Origin: a bacterium
GTDB lineage: Bacteria > Orphanbacterota > Orphanbacteria > Orphanbacterales > Orphanbacteraceae
Length of the DNA stretch: 50,398 bases
Assembly (NCBI GenBank): GCA_025782575.1
Contig: JALGYY010000040.1
Location: 1-50,398, forward strand
Direction: 5' to 3'
Below the pieces are notes generated by a model that saw only the letters and a list, made by a program, of their open reading frames with translations, did no database searches and had not been told where the DNA came from. Shown here piece after piece: positions 1,103 to 13,859 of the stretch; the stretch's first letter is position 1, and each line of letters begins with the position of its first letter. The translations under genes and the position numbers were made by a program.

Positions 1103-1264
1103 ATAGGCTGTGTGTCTCGCCGCGCTTCTCGAGTTCGCGTGACGAATCCTGTGAGACATGCGGCCAGGCGGGTCGACCCGATCGAGTCACTCTCCTTTCT
1201 CCCCGTCGATGGATCCGGGGATCCGCAGCATGATAGGCGCGGTCCTCAGGACAGGAAGATCCGG

Positions 1265-4200
1265 ATGCATCGCTTGACCCTCATTTTCATTGCTCTGGCT
1301 CTCGGGATTCCCGGGGCGGTGTCAGCCACGCTACCTGCGCCGACGAACGTCGTCGCTTCGACCGACTCATGCTGGGGGATCTACGTCTCCTGGGATGGCG
1401 TCGCTTTCGCCGATTCCTATGCGGTGATGAGCCCGGGCGATACGCTCTTCACCACCGACCTTTTTTATCGCGACCTATCCGTGCTGCCGGGCGCGAGCGT
1501 GACATACAATATCGCGGGTATCGATACGACCGGATTCGGGCTCTTCGGTTCCGCGCAGGGGACCCGTCGAGACGCGCCTCCACCGCCCGCTTCCGTGACG
1601 GCAAGCGACGATTCCTGCGGGGTTATCCAGATTGACTGGCTTGCCGCTGCGGACGCCGACTCTTATCGGGTCTTCCGAAATGGCGTGCCTCAGGTAGTCA
1701 TCGTTTCGCCGACTTTGAGCTTCAGGGACACACTCTCTCTTCCCGGCAAGTATGAGTACAGCGTGGCGGCGCTCAACGAATGCGGCCAGTCCGTAACCGT
1801 TTCCGATTCAGGAGGGAGACTGGAAGATCCGCCGCCGGTTCCGGCCGGCCTCACCACATCGACCGATCGATGTGACGGGGTTCTCCTCAGCTGGTCAGAC
1901 GTAGCGGGAGAGGATGGCTACTATCTCTATAGAGACGGCACTCCGATCGACACATTGCCGGCCAATTCGATCAGCAGGCTCGACGGTACATCACCCGCCG
2001 GTGTGCTGCTCAGCTATCAGATCGCGGCGTTCAACACATGTGAACCGGCACCCTCGCTTTCGCCGGCCGAAAACGGTTTTCGAAATCTCCCGGCGCCGGA
2101 TGGGATCGGCGTACTGCTTGCGACGACCGATCTCTGTACAGGAGTGCAGCTCACCTGGGGTGACGTAGACCGCGAAGACGGTTATGTGATCGAGCGGGAC
2201 AGCTCACCGATCGATACAGTTGCTGCCGATGCCATCGCCTATCTTGACGTGAGTGCGGTGTCGGGTATTGCGTACACCTATCGTGTGGGGCCGTTCAACT
2301 CCTGCTCGTCCGGGCCGGTCTACGGTGCGGGCACGGGAGGGAGCCGCGCGGCCGCCGCCCCTGCCGCGCCTTCCGTAGTTACGGCGAGCGATACGAGTTG
2401 CAGCCTGGTCCGTCTGGACTGGACCGCCTCGGTCGACGCCGATACGTATCATGTCTATCGTGACAATCTATTGATTGCGACGCTCTTGTCTCCCACCCTC
2501 TCTCTCGTCGATACGATCGGATCGGGGAGTTACCTGTACGGCGTTGCCGCGGGGAACAGCTGCGGCTTGTCTGATTCGACAACCGCAACAGGAACCGTGC
2601 TTCCCGGACCGCCGGTCCAACCGAGCGGACTGGTTGCGTCCGACACTTCCTGTGCAGCGGTCTTTCTCTTCTGGAACTCATCGGCGGATGCTGCGGATTA
2701 CGATGTCTTTCGAGACCATGCGTTTCTGGCCACGGTAACGGACACGTTCTATCAGGACTCCCCCGGTTCGGGAACTTTTACCTATAGTGTGATCGCCTCG
2801 AACAGCTGCGGCGAATCGGACACTACATTCGACAGCGGAACCGTCTTGCCCGGCGCACCCGCAGCTCCGGTAACGCTCGCGGCGAGTGATACGAGTTGTG
2901 TTCTCGTTCGACTCGACTGGAGCGTCTCGGCGGGCGCCGACAGCTATCGTGTTTATCGCGATAACCTGCTTCTCGCTACTCTCCCGTCGACCGCCCTCTT
3001 CTATGAAGATACGATCGGTTCGGGGACCTATGTCTATGGTGTTGCCGCGGGGAACAGTTGCGGCTGGTCCGATTCGACGACCGCTGCAGGAGCGGTGCTT
3101 CCCGGAGCCCCTGCCGGGCCAAGTCTCCTGACCGCATCCGACGACTCATGCTCTGCGGTTTTTCTCTTCTGGGACTCATCGGTCGGCGCCGATGACTACA
3201 AAGTCTTTCGAAACAATCTTCTTCTCGCCACAGTAACGGACACGTTTTATCAGGACTCTCCCGGTGCGGGAACCTACGTCTACGGCGTGACCGCCACAAA
3301 CAATTGCGGCGAATCGGATACCACCTTCGATTCGGGAACGCAGCCGGCGGGAGCGCCGCCACAGGTAGTGATCGACAGTGTTTCTCTCGATCGATGTGAC
3401 GGCATTCTTGTTCTCTGGAGCGATGTGAGTGACGAAGAGGGCTACTACATCTATCGAAGCGGGCTCCCCTTCGATACGCTCGCCGCGAATGCGACGAGTT
3501 ATCTTGATGTGACAGCTCCCGCTGGGGAGACAGTGGCCTATCGCGTGGGGGGCTTCAACACATGTACGCCGGCAGGCGTTCTCTCGGTCGCCGTCAATGG
3601 ATCAAGGCTTCTTCCCCCCCCCGACGCGCCTGCCGGATTCGACGCTTCAGGAAACGATTGTAACGGTGTTCTTCTCACCTGGACCGATGTTATCGGGGAA
3701 GACGGATACGTGGTGGAGCGGGATAATATCCTGATCGACACACTGGCGGCCGATCTTTCTTCCTGGCTCGATACGACAGCTGTGGCGCCCGTGAGTTACA
3801 CGTATCGCATCGGGGCTTTCAACGGCTGCACGATCGCGCCCGTGATGAGCGTTTCGGATATAGGGAGAAGGCAACCGGGTGCGCCAGATTCGCCGGCTAC
3901 CGTGAACGCAAGCGACGATTCATGCGGCGTTGTGCGGGTGGAGTGGACAGCGTCGGCGAGCGCGGAATCCTATTCGGTAGTTCGAGATGCCACGCCGATC
4001 GCAACGGTCGGGGCAGGCCAGCTCGTGTTTCGCGACACGCTCGCCACCGCCGGAACGTATACATATGGGGTAACGGCAGCAAACGTCTGCGGAACCTCGC
4101 CCGCCACAACCGATTCCGGGACAAGACTTCCTGACGCGCCTCTTCTCCCCGGCAGCCTCGCGGCGACGAACGATTCTTGCGATGGAGTGATCATCACGTG

Positions 4201-7200
4201 GGACGACGTAGTCGGAGAGGGTGGTTACGCACTCTATCGGGACGGCGATACGCTCGTCGTTCTGGCAGCCGACGTAATCAGCTACACGGACGGATCGGCG
4301 CTGCCGGGATCTACTTATTCCTATCAGATCGGTGCGTTCAACTTTTGCGAGCCCGACCCGGTGCTGACGACATCCGTGACCGGTGGACGTCCTGCTACAA
4401 CGCTCGAGGTCACCTTGCTCGTCGCATCGAGCGACTCGTGCGGCCTGGTTCGGATTGCATGGTCGGGTGCTCCAAACGATACGGCCTACGCGGTTTATCG
4501 GGGAAATACATTTCTGGGACTCACAAGCAGCGAGTTCTATCGGGACACGGCTGCACCCGCAGGGACCCACACATACTGGGTGGCTGCGCGAGGTGCCTGC
4601 GGCTCATCCGACTCGATCTCCGTTGCCGGCACACGGCCGCCTGACGCGCCGGCCGCCCCCTCGATCCTGACAGCGAGTGAAGATTCCTGTGGTGCGGTCT
4701 ATCTCGTCTGGGATCTATCGGCGACGGCCGACTCCTACGCGGTCTATCGCGAAGGTGCGTTTCTCGCCGGAACGACCGGCCTCTCTCTCATCGATACGCC
4801 GGGAGAGGGGACATTCTCCTACGGGGTGGAGGCGGTGAACGGTTGCGGCGTTTCCGCGATGACGGGAGATTCAGGGACCGTTCCAGCCATTCCTTCTATT
4901 CCTGCAGGTCTGGTCGCTTCGAATGATCGTTGTGACGGCATCGAGTTGAACTGGAACGATGTTACGGATGAAACAGGCTACTACGTGTACCGAGGCGTTA
5001 CGGTGATCGATACGGTCTCCGCAGGGATCACGACTTATCTCGACTTGGACGCAGAGACCGGTATTCCCGTCGTCTATCGTGTGGCGGCCTTCAATCTTTG
5101 CGCGCTCCTTCCGACGCTTTCCGATCCGGCTGAAGGGGCCAGGCTTCTTCCCGCACCCGACCCCGTTACGGGACTGATAGCCGGTACGGATCATTGCGAC
5201 CATATCGAACTCCGCTGGGACGACGTCGAACGTGAAGATGGGTATTCGATCGAACGGGATGGGGCGCCCGTTGATACGTTGTCGGCCGAAACGGACTTCT
5301 GGTTCGATCTCTCCGCACTCCCGGGAGCATCCCACGATTACAGCGTGATCCCGTTCAATTCCTGTCCCGTAATCGGCCCGGTCGATCATGACACCGTTAC
5401 AGGAAGTCGACTTTGGGATACGCCCGATTCCGTCACCAGCTTCACGGCGAGCACGGATTCCTGTGGTCTCATTCGGCTCGAGTGGATTACTTCGCCTAAA
5501 GCAGACTCCATTCTCATCGTGCGAAACGGGATCGTCACGATCGATACGATTCCGGCCACCACGACTTTCTATCGAGATACGGAAGCGATCCCCGGGAATC
5601 ACGTTTATACGATTCTCGCTTTCAATCAGTGCGGGACGTCTCTCGCTGCGGAAGCACATGGAACGCGTCTACCCGATCCGCCGGCTGTGCCGGACGGAAT
5701 TGCCGCATCGCTCGATTCATGCAACGGCATTCGAATCGATTGGAACGATGTGCAGGATGAGCAGGGGTACACCATTTATCGTGACGGTTCGTTGATCGAC
5801 AGCGTCGGCGCCGGAGTCAATTCGTATTTTGACGGTGGGGCGATTCCGGGAGGGACCCACTCCTATCAGGTGGCGGCCTGGAATCTGTGCGAGTTCGATC
5901 CGGTGCTCTCCGCATCGGCCGACGGTTTCCGATTGACCGCTCCGGACACGGTGATGTCGCTGACCGCCGTAGACAGCTGCCGGGGTGTCTTTCTTCTCTG
6001 GCCCGACGTCGACCTGGAAGACGGCTATCTCGTCACGCGGGACGGCGACTCGATCGCCACTCTGTCGAGGGATATCGCCGGCTACATCGACACGGGCGTG
6101 GCCGTCAACGTGGAACACACTTATCAGGTGCGGCCATTCAACGCCTGTTCAGGCGGTCCCGTATTCGGCGGGCCCAAGGCGACCGGCCGGCGATTGTTCG
6201 GCCCACCCGATCCGCCCGCACTCGTCACAGCCGGTGACGACGAATGCGATTTCGTCAGGATCGAATGGGACATATCACTGAACGCAACCAGCTACGATGT
6301 GTTTCGTGACGGCGCCTGGATCGATTCGGTCGGTTCGTCAGAGCTTCCGATATTCATCGACGCCGTAGCTCCCCCCGGGACCTATTCCTACTCGGTGGCT
6401 GCCAGGAATTCCTGCGGGTCGTCTTCGAGAGTTTCGGATGATGGCCGCCGCCGCGCCGGTCCCGGTGTACCGCAAAGCCCGAATGCGTCGGACAATCTGT
6501 GTGACGGTGTCTTAATCACGTGGGACGAGGCAATCGGTGCTGAAAACTATTCGGTCCGTCGCGACGGTTCCCTGGTTGCGAGCGGCCTGCCGTTCGGCCA
6601 GCTCCAGTACCTCGACAACGGTGTCGAAGGCGATGTCCAACATACTTATGTAATTGAGGCTGTCAACGCCTGCGGCACGGCGAACAGCACCGCCGTCATC
6701 GGATCGCGTCTTATCGGCGCTCCCCAGGCCCCCTCGAATGTCGTTGCATCACAGAATCTTTGCAACGATGTGAAAATCACGTGGAGCATTTCAGGTCCCA
6801 CAGACGATATTATCGGGTTCGAAATCGCCCGTGATACGGCGGGCGGTACTCTTTACGTGCCCCTCGATACTGTCAATGTCGGATCGCTCGAGTTTACGGA
6901 CATGCCCGCTCCCGGTGCATGGGACTACCTGGTTCGGACGATCAATCAGTGCGGTGCGTCACCGATCGATACGCCGGCGAGAGGAATCAGGCTGGGACCG
7001 CCGGAGGCGCCGCAGTTTGCCGACAACGACGACAAGGAAATCTGTGAGGGGAGTTCGGCCGTCCTTACATGGAACGCAGTCGACCTGGCGACATCTTACA
7101 CCGTCTTCCAGAACGGGAGCGCCCGACCGACGGGGAGCAATACTTCGTTCGAGTTTGTCGGAACAAGTGTCGGTTCGTTTGTGTTTCAAGTTCGTGCAGA

Positions 7201-10200
7201 CGGTGTCTGTGGGTCAAGCGGCCGGAGCGATACGGTTCATGTCGTTGTTACCTCACTTCCGGAGCCACCGACCAGCGCGGCGGCGACTCAGAATGAGTGT
7301 GGCGTCGTACTTCTTTCGTGGAAGCGGGGGAGAGACTCGGATACATGGATCACGATCGACGACGGTGATTCGCTTTATCTCGGCCAGGTCGAGTCGTTCG
7401 TCGACTCAATGCCCGAAGGGGGATCCCGCTCCTATCAGTTCGGCAGCTACAATGCCTGCGATACGCTTGCCGAAGCGTTCGAGATCGTAGGCAGCGCATT
7501 TCCCCTTTCCATCAGTGAGCCGACGGCGGTATTGGCCACCGATAACCGATGTGACACGGTAGTGGTGACGTGGTCGTGGGCAGGTCCGGACGACGAAGGG
7601 GTCACATTCCAGGTGGCTCGTTACGACGGCGTCCAGAAGAAGATCCTCGAAATCGTTCCGGCGGGTGCCGAGTATCGCGTGGCTGATGTGCCGCCGGACG
7701 GCGAATCTCATCAGTACACTGTGGAAACCGTAAGCGGCTGCGCCATGTCGGATGAGATCGCCAATCAGGGAAGGGCGCTTCGTAAACCGGTAAAGGTCAC
7801 ATGGATCAGCCAGGACCAGTCAACGTGCGTCTCCCAGCCGTTCAACCTGACCTGGGAAGTGATCGGCAATGCCGATGATTACATCGTTTTTCTGGGGGGG
7901 ACGGCGAGAGACACGACGAGCCAGTCGAGCTGGCTGGCCGCCCTCTTCGAGCCTGGAGATTATGAGTTCGTGATTCGCGCCATGAATGAGTGCGGACTCG
8001 GTCCGATGAGCGATTCTCAGGTCGTGACTCTTACCAATCCGCCGTCGGCACCGACGCAGGTCGTTCTCGACAGCAGCGCGTGCGACTCGGTCCGGATCTC
8101 CTGGAGCCCGCAGGTGGATAGCGTAATCGTGACGCGATCGGGGCTGGCGGCGCCGGTCTATGTCGGGCCTGGTGACGGCAGAGCCGCGGATCGTCCGGAG
8201 TCCGGGGCGACTTACCGTATCCGATCGTTCAATCAGTGCGGCGAATCGGAAGGGACCACGGTTTCCATCGGCCTGCCGCTGCTGAGTCCTCCGGCGCCTA
8301 TCTCTGTCACGGCGACGAACGGATTCTGCGATTCAGTCGTGATTACCTGGAGTCTGCCGCAGACAAACATCCCGACCGAGGAACTCTCCATTACGAGGAC
8401 AAGAGGGGGATCAACCTCGATTATAGTCGAGGGGCTCGCCCCTTCGCTCCGGCGACATGTCGACCACGGGGGGAGCGGCGAATACACATACGAAGTCGTT
8501 GCAGGGAACGAATGCGGCGTATCGATTCCGGGCGAAACCTCCGGCGATGTGGGAGCGTTCCTCCCATCCACCGGGCGCGTCTCGATCGATCCTGTGTCCG
8601 ATACATTGGCCTGCGTCAGCAGCAGCTTCCGTCTCGTCTGGAGTCCTGTGGATGGGGCCGAATCGTATCGGATCTGGGAGGGAGGGAGTGACGTGCTGAT
8701 CGACTTCGTGCTGGGCGAGACGAGTGTGGATGTTCTTGCGCCGTCGCAGGGCGATCAGTTCTTCCAGGTACAGGCGTTCGGCGAGTGTGGCGGCGGAGAG
8801 AGAAGCGAACTCTGGAAAGTATCTGTGGCGGCACTCCCCGGCCGGCCTCTCGAGTTCCGGGCAAGCCAGGAACTTTGCGGTGAAATCGAACTCGAGTGGG
8901 CCCGTTCCCCATTTCCCATCGACGGAGTTCGGGTCTATCGGAGTGGGGAGGCTATCGGCTTTGCCCCTTATCCCGACACGACCTGGTCCGATACTGATGT
9001 ATTGGCCGGTGCCGAGCATGACTACTCCGTGCAAGCTGAAGGGCGCTGCGGAATTTCAGCGCGGTCGGCTGAAGTTTCGGGCACGTCGATTCCCGGGCTC
9101 GATCCGCCGGTCTTGAGCGGGCCACCGTCGGGTGCGGCCGGCCTCCCCATTCCAGTGACGTTCAGTTGGAATCCGATTGATGAGGCACTGGGGTACCGGT
9201 TCGAAATCGAGCACCAGGAGACGGGTCTTACTGTGGTGGACACTCTTATCCCTGCCGATCCATCCGTGACCGTCCGCGCTCTCGAGTTGGGAGAGCCCTA
9301 CTTCTGGCGTGTGGCCACCGTCGGCGATTGCGGCCCGGGTGAGCCTTCCGGCTGGCGGGTGTTCCAGACTCTCGCCAGTGCTCCGGCCGTGCTGGCGAGC
9401 GATCCGGCGAACTTCTCTCTGAACGTTCCGGTTGACGCCGTCATTCGGGTGACGTTCAACCTGCCGATCGATCCGGCGAGTCTCGGTGGAGCGGTTCTCC
9501 GTCTCGGAAACGACGAAATCCCGGGGACGCCCAGCCTGGAAGAGGGTGGGAGCCGACTCGTGTTCGATCCGGTTGACAGCCTGCAGTTCAATCAGACTTA
9601 TGTACTGTTCGTCAGTGAACTTCATGATGTGTTCGGCCGGCCCCTTGGAGGCGTGGCGCCGATCACGTTCACCACGGTGCCAGGCAAGAAGCCGGTGGGC
9701 GATCTGGATGGAGACTTCCAAAGAAGTCCGGCCGACGCCGCTTACGCAGTCGATGTCATCATCGGCGGGCTGCCTGACGGATCGTATGACGAAGCCCTGC
9801 TCGATCTGAACGGGGACGGGCGCTTCACCGTGGCCGATCTCGTCTTTCTGGGCCGGTTGATCGTGAACGAAGGGGTTGTCCTTCTTCCTGAGGGGGGCAA
9901 GCGGGAGACGGCGCCGGTCGAGCTCCGGCTCGAACCGTCGGGGGATGACATCTATCGCGTCACGTTGCGGGCGGACCTGCCGTTCCGGGCGACGGGCGGA
10001 TACTGGGATCTGATCTGGCCGGAGAGAGTGCGCCTGATCGACGGAATTACCGACGGAGATCCGGCTTCCACCGCCGACATCTGGCACAGCTTCGCCGGGA
10101 ACCGTCTCCGTCTGCTTGTCGCCGCGCCGGACGGCCACGATCTTTCGTTCTCATTTCTGGTGCACGCCGACCGTATGCCCGAGTCGGTTCATGTCGCGGA

Positions 10201-10558
10201 GTTTATTGGCACGGATGAAAATGGTGAGGACCGTCGACTGGCACCCCAGACGGGCGATCGCATTCCCGTAACATCGACCGGCGTGATCCTGCTCGCTCGA
10301 AACCGGCCGAACCCGTTCAATCCCACGACCGAGATTCGATACTTCCTGCCTTATCCGGCTCCGGTTCGGGTCGAAGTATTCGATCTCACCGGCAGAAGTG
10401 TCGCCATACTGGTGGATGGACCGATCGGATCTGGCTGGCAGTCTACCGTCTGGAACGGGGAGTCGAGTGAAGGTACGGAAAGTGTGTCCGGAATCTACTT
10501 CGCGCGGCTCACGACGGGGGCGACCACTCACACCGTGCGCATGGTTCTCATACGATAG
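1265..10558 (+). CDS. giant secreted multi-repeat Fn3-like protein with dockerin and FlgD-like tail
   Basis: The ATG at 1265 is preferred over the upstream-extended frame from 1112 because it has an AGGAAG ribosome site seven bases upstream and starts a clear signal peptide (MHRLTLIFIALALGIPGAVSA). The mature 3,097-residue product holds about 31 fibronectin-III-like repeats of 85-95 residues (residues about 24-2705). Nearly all carry a Cys in the B strand (DSCxxVxLxW) and a second near the F strand (NxCG), probably one disulfide per repeat. Then follow a Big_5 Ig-like domain (about 2707-2805), a dockerin-like pair of calcium loops (DLDGD, DLNGDG; about 2811-2868), a cohesin-like beta domain, and an FlgD-like C-terminal module (about 3012-3097, NPFNPTTEIRYFLP) used in sorting or anchoring in FCB-type bacteria. 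It is probably an extracellular adhesin or matrix protein; substrate unknown. Confidence 0.9.
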   Translation: MHRLTLIFIALALGIPGAVSATLPAPTNVVASTDSCWGIYVSWDGVAFADSYAVMSPGDTLFTTDLFYRDLSVLPGASVTYNIAGIDTTGFGLFGSAQGTRRDAPPPPASVTASDDSCGVIQIDWLAAADADSYRVFRNGVPQVVIVSPTLSFRDTLSLPGKYEYSVAALNECGQSVTVSDSGGRLEDPPPVPAGLTTSTDRCDGVLLSWSDVAGEDGYYLYRDGTPIDTLPANSISRLDGTSPAGVLLSYQIAAFNTCEPAPSLSPAENGFRNLPAPDGIGVLLATTDLCTGVQLTWGDVDREDGYVIERDSSPIDTVAADAIAYLDVSAVSGIAYTYRVGPFNSCSSGPVYGAGTGGSRAAAAPAAPSVVTASDTSCSLVRLDWTASVDADTYHVYRDNLLIATLLSPTLSLVDTIGSGSYLYGVAAGNSCGLSDSTTATGTVLPGPPVQPSGLVASDTSCAAVFLFWNSSADAADYDVFRDHAFLATVTDTFYQDSPGSGTFTYSVIASNSCGESDTTFDSGTVLPGAPAAPVTLAASDTSCVLVRLDWSVSAGADSYRVYRDNLLLATLPSTALFYEDTIGSGTYVYGVAAGNSCGWSDSTTAAGAVLPGAPAGPSLLTASDDSCSAVFLFWDSSVGADDYKVFRNNLLLATVTDTFYQDSPGAGTYVYGVTATNNCGESDTTFDSGTQPAGAPPQVVIDSVSLDRCDGILVLWSDVSDEEGYYIYRSGLPFDTLAANATSYLDVTAPAGETVAYRVGGFNTCTPAGVLSVAVNGSRLLPPPDAPAGFDASGNDCNGVLLTWTDVIGEDGYVVERDNILIDTLAADLSSWLDTTAVAPVSYTYRIGAFNGCTIAPVMSVSDIGRRQPGAPDSPATVNASDDSCGVVRVEWTASASAESYSVVRDATPIATVGAGQLVFRDTLATAGTYTYGVTAANVCGTSPATTDSGTRLPDAPLLPGSLAATNDSCDGVIITWDDVVGEGGYALYRDGDTLVVLAADVISYTDGSALPGSTYSYQIGAFNFCEPDPVLTTSVTGGRPATTLEVTLLVASSDSCGLVRIAWSGAPNDTAYAVYRGNTFLGLTSSEFYRDTAAPAGTHTYWVAARGACGSSDSISVAGTRPPDAPAAPSILTASEDSCGAVYLVWDLSATADSYAVYREGAFLAGTTGLSLIDTPGEGTFSYGVEAVNGCGVSAMTGDSGTVPAIPSIPAGLVASNDRCDGIELNWNDVTDETGYYVYRGVTVIDTVSAGITTYLDLDAETGIPVVYRVAAFNLCALLPTLSDPAEGARLLPAPDPVTGLIAGTDHCDHIELRWDDVEREDGYSIERDGAPVDTLSAETDFWFDLSALPGASHDYSVIPFNSCPVIGPVDHDTVTGSRLWDTPDSVTSFTASTDSCGLIRLEWITSPKADSILIVRNGIVTIDTIPATTTFYRDTEAIPGNHVYTILAFNQCGTSLAAEAHGTRLPDPPAVPDGIAASLDSCNGIRIDWNDVQDEQGYTIYRDGSLIDSVGAGVNSYFDGGAIPGGTHSYQVAAWNLCEFDPVLSASADGFRLTAPDTVMSLTAVDSCRGVFLLWPDVDLEDGYLVTRDGDSIATLSRDIAGYIDTGVAVNVEHTYQVRPFNACSGGPVFGGPKATGRRLFGPPDPPALVTAGDDECDFVRIEWDISLNATSYDVFRDGAWIDSVGSSELPIFIDAVAPPGTYSYSVAARNSCGSSSRVSDDGRRRAGPGVPQSPNASDNLCDGVLITWDEAIGAENYSVRRDGSLVASGLPFGQLQYLDNGVEGDVQHTYVIEAVNACGTANSTAVIGSRLIGAPQAPSNVVASQNLCNDVKITWSISGPTDDIIGFEIARDTAGGTLYVPLDTVNVGSLEFTDMPAPGAWDYLVRTINQCGASPIDTPARGIRLGPPEAPQFADNDDKEICEGSSAVLTWNAVDLATSYTVFQNGSARPTGSNTSFEFVGTSVGSFVFQVRADGVCGSSGRSDTVHVVVTSLPEPPTSAAATQNECGVVLLSWKRGRDSDTWITIDDGDSLYLGQVESFVDSMPEGGSRSYQFGSYNACDTLAEAFEIVGSAFPLSISEPTAVLATDNRCDTVVVTWSWAGPDDEGVTFQVARYDGVQKKILEIVPAGAEYRVADVPPDGESHQYTVETVSGCAMSDEIANQGRALRKPVKVTWISQDQSTCVSQPFNLTWEVIGNADDYIVFLGGTARDTTSQSSWLAALFEPGDYEFVIRAMNECGLGPMSDSQVVTLTNPPSAPTQVVLDSSACDSVRISWSPQVDSVIVTRSGLAAPVYVGPGDGRAADRPESGATYRIRSFNQCGESEGTTVSIGLPLLSPPAPISVTATNGFCDSVVITWSLPQTNIPTEELSITRTRGGSTSIIVEGLAPSLRRHVDHGGSGEYTYEVVAGNECGVSIPGETSGDVGAFLPSTGRVSIDPVSDTLACVSSSFRLVWSPVDGAESYRIWEGGSDVLIDFVLGETSVDVLAPSQGDQFFQVQAFGECGGGERSELWKVSVAALPGRPLEFRASQELCGEIELEWARSPFPIDGVRVYRSGEAIGFAPYPDTTWSDTDVLAGAEHDYSVQAEGRCGISARSAEVSGTSIPGLDPPVLSGPPSGAAGLPIPVTFSWNPIDEALGYRFEIEHQETGLTVVDTLIPADPSVTVRALELGEPYFWRVATVGDCGPGEPSGWRVFQTLASAPAVLASDPANFSLNVPVDAVIRVTFNLPIDPASLGGAVLRLGNDEIPGTPSLEEGGSRLVFDPVDSLQFNQTYVLFVSELHDVFGRPLGGVAPITFTTVPGKKPVGDLDGDFQRSPADAAYAVDVIIGGLPDGSYDEALLDLNGDGRFTVADLVFLGRLIVNEGVVLLPEGGKRETAPVELRLEPSGDDIYRVTLRADLPFRATGGYWDLIWPERVRLIDGITDGDPASTADIWHSFAGNRLRLLVAAPDGHDLSFSFLVHADRMPESVHVAEFIGTDENGEDRRLAPQTGDRIPVTSTGVILLARNRPNPFNPTTEIRYFLPYPAPVRVEVFDLTGRSVAILVDGPIGSGWQSTVWNGESSEGTESVSGIYFARLTTGATTHTVRMVLIR
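2383..3355 (+). repeat. tandem duplication of a two-Fn3 unit (about 498 bp period)
   Basis: Fn3 repeats 5 and 6 (from about 2383) and 7 and 8 (from about 2881) match each other pairwise much better than other repeats. Repeats 5 and 7 share VAAGNSCG and SDSTT, and repeats 6 and 8 share ATVTDTFYQDSPG, CGESDTTFDSG and FLFW. The pairs are offset by about 498 bases, so the gene grew here by a recent in-frame duplication of a two-domain block. Confidence 0.75.
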
Positions 10559-11790: not shown

Positions 11791-12405
11791 ATGAAAACAA
11801 AACTGATCTTAATGGTGCTTGCGGCGGCCGCACTGTCTCTGGCGTGCGATCAACGTTCCGGGTCGGTGCTCGTCAAAGATGACCTCCCTGTGACCTTTGT
11901 CGACGAGAGTGCCGAGTTTTCTCCGCTCCACATGGGCAACTGGACCACGATGAACGATCGCTGCATGGTGCGCCGGGCGAAGCTCAATCTGAAGATGCCG
12001 CCGGTCTACGTGAGCGGACGGCCTGTCGGCTTCTGCTGAGTGCCGTGCAGTCGGATCTTCGTGCAAGATCCAACACCTTACATCAACTCACTCGAACTCC
12101 TCATTCCCTGCGCCATGGATATCCGTCAGCGGGCGATCGTGGATGATGCCCATCGGTCTGTCATAAACTATGAGATTTATTATTTTTCGAGCGATAAGAA
12201 GAAGATCAAATTCGACGAAAAGCCATACAAGCATTGCGGGCCTCTTACTGACCCGGCAACGCACCAGCGGTTCATTCCGACCAAGGATTCACCTCGAATC
12301 GATCGCGCCGGGCGGGCTTTCTATTTTCTTTCCGATTCAACGCGCACGGTTTTCGAAGCCCACGCCGACAGTTTGACTCTACCGACCTACAGGATGAGAT
12401 CGTAG
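11791..12405 (+). CDS. candidate selenoprotein: CCxxC-type lipoprotein with in-frame UGA (Sec83)
   Basis: Translation from ATG 11791 gives a lipoprotein signal (MKTKLILMVLAAAALSLAC) and a domain ending PPVYVSGRPVGFC; TGA follows at 12037-12039, and the same frame continues open for 121 codons as VPCSRIFVQDPTPYINSL. Joined, this reads GxPVGFC-U-VPCxxxF...P..Y, matching YHS/TRASH-like small metal-binding modules in which FCCxxC is normal. UGA thus sits exactly where the second Cys is expected. A perfect 7-bp stem with a five-base loop starts 13 bases after UGA (see separate entry), as in bacterial SECIS elements. The second half (HRSVINYEIYYFSS ... CGPLTDPATHQRF ... FYFLSDSTRTVFEA) looks like another related domain. 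Full length 204 residues if UGA is decoded. A simple nonsense mutation (TGC to TGA) is the alternative. Confidence 0.6.
12053..12071 (+). promoter_or_regulatory. bSECIS-like stem-loop downstream of in-frame UGA
   Basis: GGATCTT (12053-12059) pairs perfectly with AAGATCC (12065-12071) around the loop CGTGC. The loop begins 21 bases after the UGA at 12037-12039 and its second base is G. The published bacterial SECIS consensus asks for an apical loop about 16-37 bases after UGA with a G among its first two bases, so this fits. The hairpin lies within coding sequence for RIFVQDP, so it is constrained by protein as well. Chance occurrence cannot be excluded from one sequence. Confidence 0.5.
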
Positions 12406-12436: not shown

Positions 12437-12509
12437 ATAGTTCTGGGGACACAATACTTAATTCCACCAAACGGGTCGGGGGAATTAAGTATTGTGTCCC
12501 CAGAACTAT
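12437..12509. repeat. REPIN-like perfect inverted repeat (29-bp arms)
   Basis: The arm at 12437-12465 is the exact reverse complement of 12481-12509, with a 15-base spacer. The arm contains GGGGACACAATACTTAATT, a sequence I recall beside REP-associated tyrosine transposases (IS200/IS605-like RAYT) in many environmental genomes. No transposase is adjacent, so this would be a non-autonomous hairpin mobilised in trans. It lies 32 bases after the putative selenoprotein gene and may also stop transcription. Confidence 0.7.
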
Positions 12510-12572: not shown

Positions 12573-13427
12573 ATGCAGGGTATCGAGCGACTCACAGCTC
12601 AGTTCCTTCCCCGGGCGATTGCCGGGCCCCTCTGCGCCCTGATTCTACTTTCATGCACCGAGATCGAATACTCCACACGCTATTTCAAAGATATCAATTT
12701 CGAACCGCGGACGTACCCGCCAAAGGTGACTGACGCGCCCGAACTCGCACTCCGAAGCGAAGGCTTTGTCGATATCGGCGCGATCCTGGTCCGTGGAAGG
12801 GGGGCACGCGGCCGCGCCATGAAGGAGGCGCGTCGACGCGGGGCAGATATGGTGTACTTAAGTCACTACTCCCGAGCCGGTTCCCGGCTTGTATCCAAGC
12901 AGGAGGATGACCGGGAGGAGATCGTGGCGGAACGCGATTACTATTATCTGACGTACTTCGAAGCCAAGCTGTTCCGTCACGAGCCTGACCTCGCTATCGA
13001 CCGCGCCGTTCTCTTCGCGCTCGCTTATCCGACAAAAGTACCCGATGCGGGCGGGCACATGGTCACTCCCGATGTACGCCATCACTTTCTGGTGAAGCTA
13101 TTTGCTGCCGGTGCGGATCCGAATGCCCGCCATGACGGCGATCCGATTCTCTGCAAGACCCTGACTGTGTGGTACCGAAACCTGGGTGAGCACTTCGTCG
13201 GAGTTGTCCGACTGCTTGTCGATTCGGGGGCTGACCCGTACGCCCGCGCTTCGACCGGAAAATGCGCGGCCGATCTGGTTCAGGAAAAACTCGCCTGGCT
13301 GAAAGGGATGACATCGGAAGAGGAAATGGAGCTGGGAGTTCGGTTCAATCGCCGGCGATCCTACAGCGAGTATCTCGCCATCGAAGAGATCATTTCTCTA
13401 GCGGGAAAATCGGTCTCAGGGAAGTAA
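12573..13427 (+). CDS. ankyrin-repeat-like lipoprotein
   Basis: The 284-residue product has a lipobox-like signal (AGPLCALILLSC), placing it on a membrane. The middle has a YDxMKEARRRGADMVYLSHY-like stretch, resembling periplasmic domains in which a residue run AxxxGA follows a helix. Residues about 155-235 carry ankyrin-like elements: VKLFAAGADPNARHDGDPIL and VRLLVDSGADPYARASTGKCAADL, both with the GADPN/Y turn typical of ankyrin repeats, which mediate protein binding. A GGGAGAGG ribosome site precedes the ATG. It converges with the DCC gene and overlaps its end by 12 bases. No precise function can be assigned. Confidence 0.65.
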   Translation: MQGIERLTAQFLPRAIAGPLCALILLSCTEIEYSTRYFKDINFEPRTYPPKVTDAPELALRSEGFVDIGAILVRGRGARGRAMKEARRRGADMVYLSHYSRAGSRLVSKQEDDREEIVAERDYYYLTYFEAKLFRHEPDLAIDRAVLFALAYPTKVPDAGGHMVTPDVRHHFLVKLFAAGADPNARHDGDPILCKTLTVWYRNLGEHFVGVVRLLVDSGADPYARASTGKCAADLVQEKLAWLKGMTSEEEMELGVRFNRRRSYSEYLAIEEIISLAGKSVSGK

Positions 13428-13859
13428 CCGGTCCTGCTGCTCCTCGTCCGGAATCGGACAACCGCTTGACCTGCCGAACCAGTCGTATCGATTGCGGGCC
13501 ACCCACCTGTAGACTCCATCTCGAACAGGTCGGGGAACGATCAGAAGAATGCGCGCCAGTTTTCGGACGCCGCCGGTGAGTGCGATCGCCCGGAGTACCG
13601 CATTCGACCGGTGATAGACCCGTCCATCGAGTTCGAGCAGAAACGACCACCCTGCGGGATCCGGTCCCGGCTCGATGGCGAGTTCCCGGGCAGTCTCCCC
13701 CTCGATCGGCGCGAAGAGTAACAGGCCGGCGGAATCACGCTCGAAGAGCCAGCGCACGGACCGATGGCAAAGCGCACATGTACCGTCATAGAACACGATC
13801 GGGTTTTCGGCGTGAGAACTGTTGTCCGGCCCGCGGTCAGGCACCTGTCGCGCCGGCAA
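13416..13859 (-). CDS. DCC-family (DUF393) thiol-disulfide oxidoreductase-like protein
   Basis: The product (about 147 residues from a TTG start; start uncertain) has the family hallmark YDGTCALC near its N-terminus, followed by VRWLFERDSAGLLLFAPIEG, a conserved SNAVLRAI segment and the C-terminal YDWFGRSSGCPIP. These match the DCC family, thought to have a thioredoxin-like fold with a DxxCxxC motif. Its start lies inside the end of the mechanosensitive channel gene (23-base overlap), so the two are probably co-transcribed and translationally coupled. The physiological substrate is unknown in this family. Confidence 0.85.
   Translation of the reverse strand: MPARQVPDRGPDNSSHAENPIVFYDGTCALCHRSVRWLFERDSAGLLLFAPIEGETARELAIEPGPDPAGWSFLLELDGRVYHRSNAVLRAIALTGGVRKLARILLIVPRPVRDGVYRWVARNRYDWFGRSSGCPIPDEEQQDRLLP

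Follow-up and report, generated by a model that had tools for sequence, protein, structure and literature searches.

The window, the whole stretch of bacterial DNA analysed here (50,398 nucleotides), contains at positions 11791–12405 what is almost certainly a single gene for a secreted selenoprotein, in which an internal UGA codon is read as selenocysteine (Sec). This reading draws on comparison of the sequence with its orthologues, and the predicted features of the locus are as follows.

11791–12405, plus strand: predicted selenoprotein gene, 204 residues with UGA as Sec, stop TAG at 12403–12405; orthologues align over the full length
11791–11847, plus strand: predicted signal peptide with lipobox LSLA-C19 (pattern match; helix at residues 2–20 in the predicted structure)
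11953–12084, plus strand: YHS-like module 1, residues 55–98, NDRC58...GFC82-U83-VPC86...F, with the conserved Cys/Sec set
12037–12039, plus strand: UGA codon, predicted selenocysteine 83
12053–12071, plus strand: bSECIS-like hairpin, core 12054–12059 with 12065–12070, loop CGTGC at 12060–12064, identified by pairing and covariation
12109–12234, plus strand: YHS-like module 2, residues 107–148, ligand Cys lost; best stretch of the Pfam YHS match (130–147), above the gathering score
12235–12384, plus strand: YHS-like module 3, residues 149–198, ligand Cys lost; Pfam YHS match in orthologues and a repeated strand-strand-helix unit in the model

Reading frame and selenocysteine machinery

A preliminary description of this DNA had noted two in-phase frames parted by one TGA. 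This is correct: the TGA at 12037–12039 is the sole in-frame stop before the terminal TAG, and the frame is otherwise open. The joined translation runs ...GRPVGFC, the TGA, then VPCSRIFVQDP.... The same description matched the UGA to the second Cys in the motif FCCxxC, rightly so because Cys paralogues with FCCxxC are present in the same genome (L034), and four orthologues have TGC at this position. In the proposed mechanism, SelB bound to the hairpin would bring Sec-tRNA to the UGA, and the ribosome would then continue to the TAG at 12403. Recoding of the UGA is strongly supported by the comparisons given below.

The genome from which the window comes (4.88 Mb, 95% complete) holds the Sec machinery that the preliminary description had proposed to look for. 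Its tRNA-Sec scores 72.7 bits, far above the cut-off, and is also found by ARAGORN, with anticodon TCA; SelA, SelB and SelD score 524.6, 378.6 and 379.1 bits respectively. SelD has an in-frame TGA of its own, within a G-U-AAK motif, and is an internal positive control. Read-through of TGA both here and in selD might also follow from a genome-wide reassignment of this codon to Trp, Gly or Cys, but the probability of this is negligible in a genome with the full Sec machinery; general reassignment is excluded because TGA is a normal stop, ending 12 of the 30 long open reading frames of the window.

In total, tRNA-Sec is present in 29 of 34 genomes tested. It was not found in G005, G112, G506 or the Cys-bearing G501, all of which have genes of the family; as these are draft bins and scoring was confined to a limited set of candidates, its absence from the remaining genomes is not established.

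Conservation of the UGA codon and its hairpin

Alignment of homologues, also suggested in the preliminary description, gives 27 distinct orthologues, in which this exact codon is UGA in 23, TGC (Cys) in four (L086, L087, L092 and L097) and never a codon for any other residue. An initial search yielded three relatives, all belonging to the taxonomic family of the window's organism; a single in-frame TGA interrupts every one of them, at the same codon. A further phylum contributes eight orthologues, all with UGA. Two others (L067 and L068, both UGA) come from a broad survey of 386 genomes, and a third group adds nine with UGA together with the four with TGC. Named records among the carriers include bins of Candidatus Eisenbacteria, one bin under the label Gemmatimonadetes and one unplaced bacterium. 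In the family tree Sec and Cys have switched four times, with at least two switches forced by well-supported branches. The selenoprotein family is common to several little-studied bacterial phyla.

A frame split by one in-frame stop could also arise if a YHS gene in decay had acquired a true nonsense mutation. We regard this as highly improbable, as 23 orthologues, drawn from several phyla, have UGA at this codon, and the near relatives L021 and L022 differ downstream of it mostly at third codon positions (5, 8 and 36 differences at first, second and third positions). None of the UGA orthologues has a second stop or a frameshift. In place of the disabling downstream mutations that the preliminary description said would count against recoding, the relatives show purifying selection after the UGA.

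The possibility that there are two adjacent genes is similarly slight. Positions 12040–12405 do form an open frame that could begin with the GTG at 12040, but the split would cut the YHS module through its FC-U-xxC motif, the codon that follows the TGA in most orthologues is not a start codon (ACT, AGC, CGC, TCC, AGG and others), and the four Cys orthologues are each one continuous protein.

The hairpin is as first described, a perfect 7-bp stem (GGATCTT at 12053–12059, AAGATCC at 12065–12071) enclosing the loop CGTGC, with G at loop position 2; the spacing from the UGA to the loop is 20 nt. The preliminary description held that the UGA site and the hairpin together make chance less likely. 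For the hairpin taken singly this argument is weak: when the same loop and spacing rules are applied to both strands of the window, a Watson-Crick stem 7 bp or longer lies behind 15 of 1570 TGAs (1.0%), and the share is 5.9% when G-U pairs are allowed. Because a lone hairpin is not very rare, the argument rests instead on comparison, and here the conserved UGA with its stem does go beyond chance.

Over the 23 UGA genes the core follows the consensus GRYYUU-CG(U/G)N-AARRYC, and all six core pairs are intact in 22 of them. Pairing is found in 98.6% of cells, compared with at most 66.7% in slid registers. Compensatory changes on both sides occur at three pairs (G-C/A-U, U-A/C-G and C-G/U-A), with 15 cells changed on both sides where 5.5 are expected, and none of 500 shuffles gave a covariation score as high as that observed. 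Some compensated changes alter the amino acid, from Ile or Val to Thr or from Asp to Gly, and the loop varies from CGUGC to CGGUG or CGGCG with the G retained. The exception is L067, in which UGA is retained, two of the six core pairs are broken and an alternative hairpin can form; this gene may use the other stem. Among the Cys genes, L086, L092 and L097 have lost the hairpin, and L087, which is closely related to Sec members, has weakened pairing that is kept with G-U pairs. This is the behaviour expected of a SECIS freed from selection. The family shows with unusual clarity a bacterial SECIS that covaries within translated protein sequence.

Protein architecture and the putative metal site

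The window protein matches the Pfam YHS family PF04945 at 31.7 bits (gathering threshold 30.3), and all 12 members of the family that were scanned match at E <= 1, the best at 7.3e-12. A structure model (14 sequences, mean pLDDT 84.3) has a strand-strand-helix unit that is repeated in modules 2 and 3. Comparison of this predicted structure with known folds gave no match at E <= 0.001, and searches of the PDB by sequence and by fold gave weak matches, many of them to toluene, phenol and methane monooxygenases and to ribosomal proteins. Only module 1 of the three YHS-like modules keeps the Cys/Sec ligand set: all 27 orthologues have Cys at positions 58, 82 and 86 and either Sec or Cys at 83. Modules 2 and 3 are degenerate repeats, probably with a structural role.

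The signal peptide would take the protein across the membrane. The protein had been called a lipoprotein, a description that fits the window protein and six of the 13 other members, so that the lipobox pattern, met here at Cys19, is found in seven of 14; the others carry a signal peptide without it. Judged by this motif, the protein is probably lipid-anchored in this species.

If the protein is a selenoprotein, the balance of evidence tips slightly towards a soft-metal site in module 1. This module, of YHS/TRASH type, would bring Cys58, Cys82, Sec83 and Cys86 together, and their sulfur and selenium atoms may bind a soft metal or metalloid ion of the copper or mercury class, with Sec83 raising the affinity or reactivity of the site.

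The main competing proposal, which we think has perhaps one chance in three, is that the selenoprotein functions in reversible thiol redox chemistry through a selenenylsulfide between Sec83 and Cys86, without bound metal. UxxC is present in all 23 Sec members, mostly as UxPC and so like the CxPC of thioredoxin; a strictly invariant Pro before Cys86 was considered and dropped once more members had been added. A redox role is presumed for most selenoproteins (PMC13188914), and a gene for a DCC1-like thiol oxidoreductase lies nearby, both here and in two relatives. Against this, the fold is YHS-like rather than thioredoxin-like, Cys58 and Cys82 are invariant although a two-residue redox site does not need them, and the oxidoreductase neighbour is found only within one taxonomic family. 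We consider soft-metal binding more likely than thiol redox, and leave a small share of probability to functions other than these two.

No neighbouring gene shared across phyla was found. The recurring neighbours are an ankyrin-like lipoprotein, a DCC1-like oxidoreductase and a CBM48 protein, and as these recur chiefly within the taxonomic family of the window's organism they indicate no function by association. The oxidoreductase is placed as follows.

13416–13859, minus strand: DCC1-like thiol-disulfide oxidoreductase, near the selenoprotein gene; relatives lie near the orthologue in G002 and G005

Just downstream of the selenoprotein gene, at 12437–12509, is a near-perfect inverted repeat with 32-nt arms and 9 nt between them (ATAGTTCTGGGGACACAATACTTAATTCC), the sole copy within the window and possibly a small mobile element or a terminator. 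An Rfam scan of the window gave no match. Upstream, at 1112–10558 on the plus strand, a single open reading frame of 3148 residues appears by eye to consist of repeated fibronectin-III-like modules with a FlgD-like or sorting-type C-terminal end.

A second candidate family and relationship to known proteins

Short secreted two-module YHS-like proteins, resembling modules 2 and 3 of the main family, are encoded at 15 loci (L098–L112) in the phylum of G411. All 15 have an in-frame TGA, never TAA or TAG, just past the signal peptide and usually behind [RS]FT or similar residues such as FS, IT or FV. A hairpin, GGUCCC-GUC-GGGACC, is found in 11 loci with its loop starting 17 nt downstream of the TGA; pairs form in 97.4% of its cells, and no shuffle reached its covariation score. 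One subgroup (L098, L102, L105 and L111) has the TGA at the same place followed by a different downstream sequence, CGPSxPVPAA. Most of the genomes have tRNA-Sec, and the proteins give weak matches to NF041384. By these marks the group is probably another unlisted selenoprotein family. A further locus, L069, is assigned to it, with a TGA at 1849–1851 (minus strand) of L069.

It is conceivable, and we offer this tentatively, that the exported YHS family of several uncultured phyla, with Sec and three Cys as a Se/S soft-metal site outside the cytoplasm, and this second YHS-like selenoprotein, with Sec near its mature N-terminus, together represent a Sec-based envelope system for metals or metalloids.

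The closest described selenoprotein is NF041384 (YHS_seleno_dom), likewise of the YHS superfamily and with Sec in some members. It is the sole YHS entry in a review of 119 prokaryotic selenoprotein families and subfamilies, where its motif is given as GxU (PMC13188914). Its model does not match the window protein at E <= 10 and reaches at best about 25 bits on the family (cut-off 70), as a weak local similarity to modules 2 and 3, outside the Sec module; Sec in the present family lies instead in GFCUxxC of module 1. The same review counts proteins with Sec at another position of a shared domain as a distinct subfamily. The Sec-site type described here is absent from those 119 families and subfamilies, although it may figure in subscription papers or later annotation, and the family scores below the cut-off of every NCBIfam 20.0 model. 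Standard annotation is therefore likely to truncate the gene at the UGA. Plasmid and viral collections contained no relatives.

Triple-YHS proteins with Cys (L034 in the same genome; L032, L033 and L055–L060) share the signal peptide and the repeated YHS modules, and the UGA of the family falls at the second Cys of their FCCxxC. They differ in having no UGA, and L032–L034 keep Cys in all three modules. The layout Cys-x23-Cys-x3-Cys in module 1 is one that we take to be close to the TRASH pattern. The family resembles TRASH/YHS domains (PF04945 and the TRASH models) in its Pfam YHS match above the cut-off, and departs from them in that Sec adjoins the second Cys and modules 2 and 3 lack Cys. 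The double selenoprotein MbdU (NF045648), which is called metal-binding, has a comparable Cys-Sec (CU) motif (PMC13188914); unlike the present proteins it has two Sec residues, and they give no match to NF045648.

The preliminary description knew of no selenoprotein of this type. The subfamily and its Sec site do appear new, since the family falls below the cut-off of NF041384 and has its Sec elsewhere, although a YHS selenoprotein had already been described in NF041384 itself. What is added is a selenoprotein subfamily in which Cys variants occur naturally, and because such variants exist the benefit of Sec relative to Cys at a site of YHS type is directly testable.
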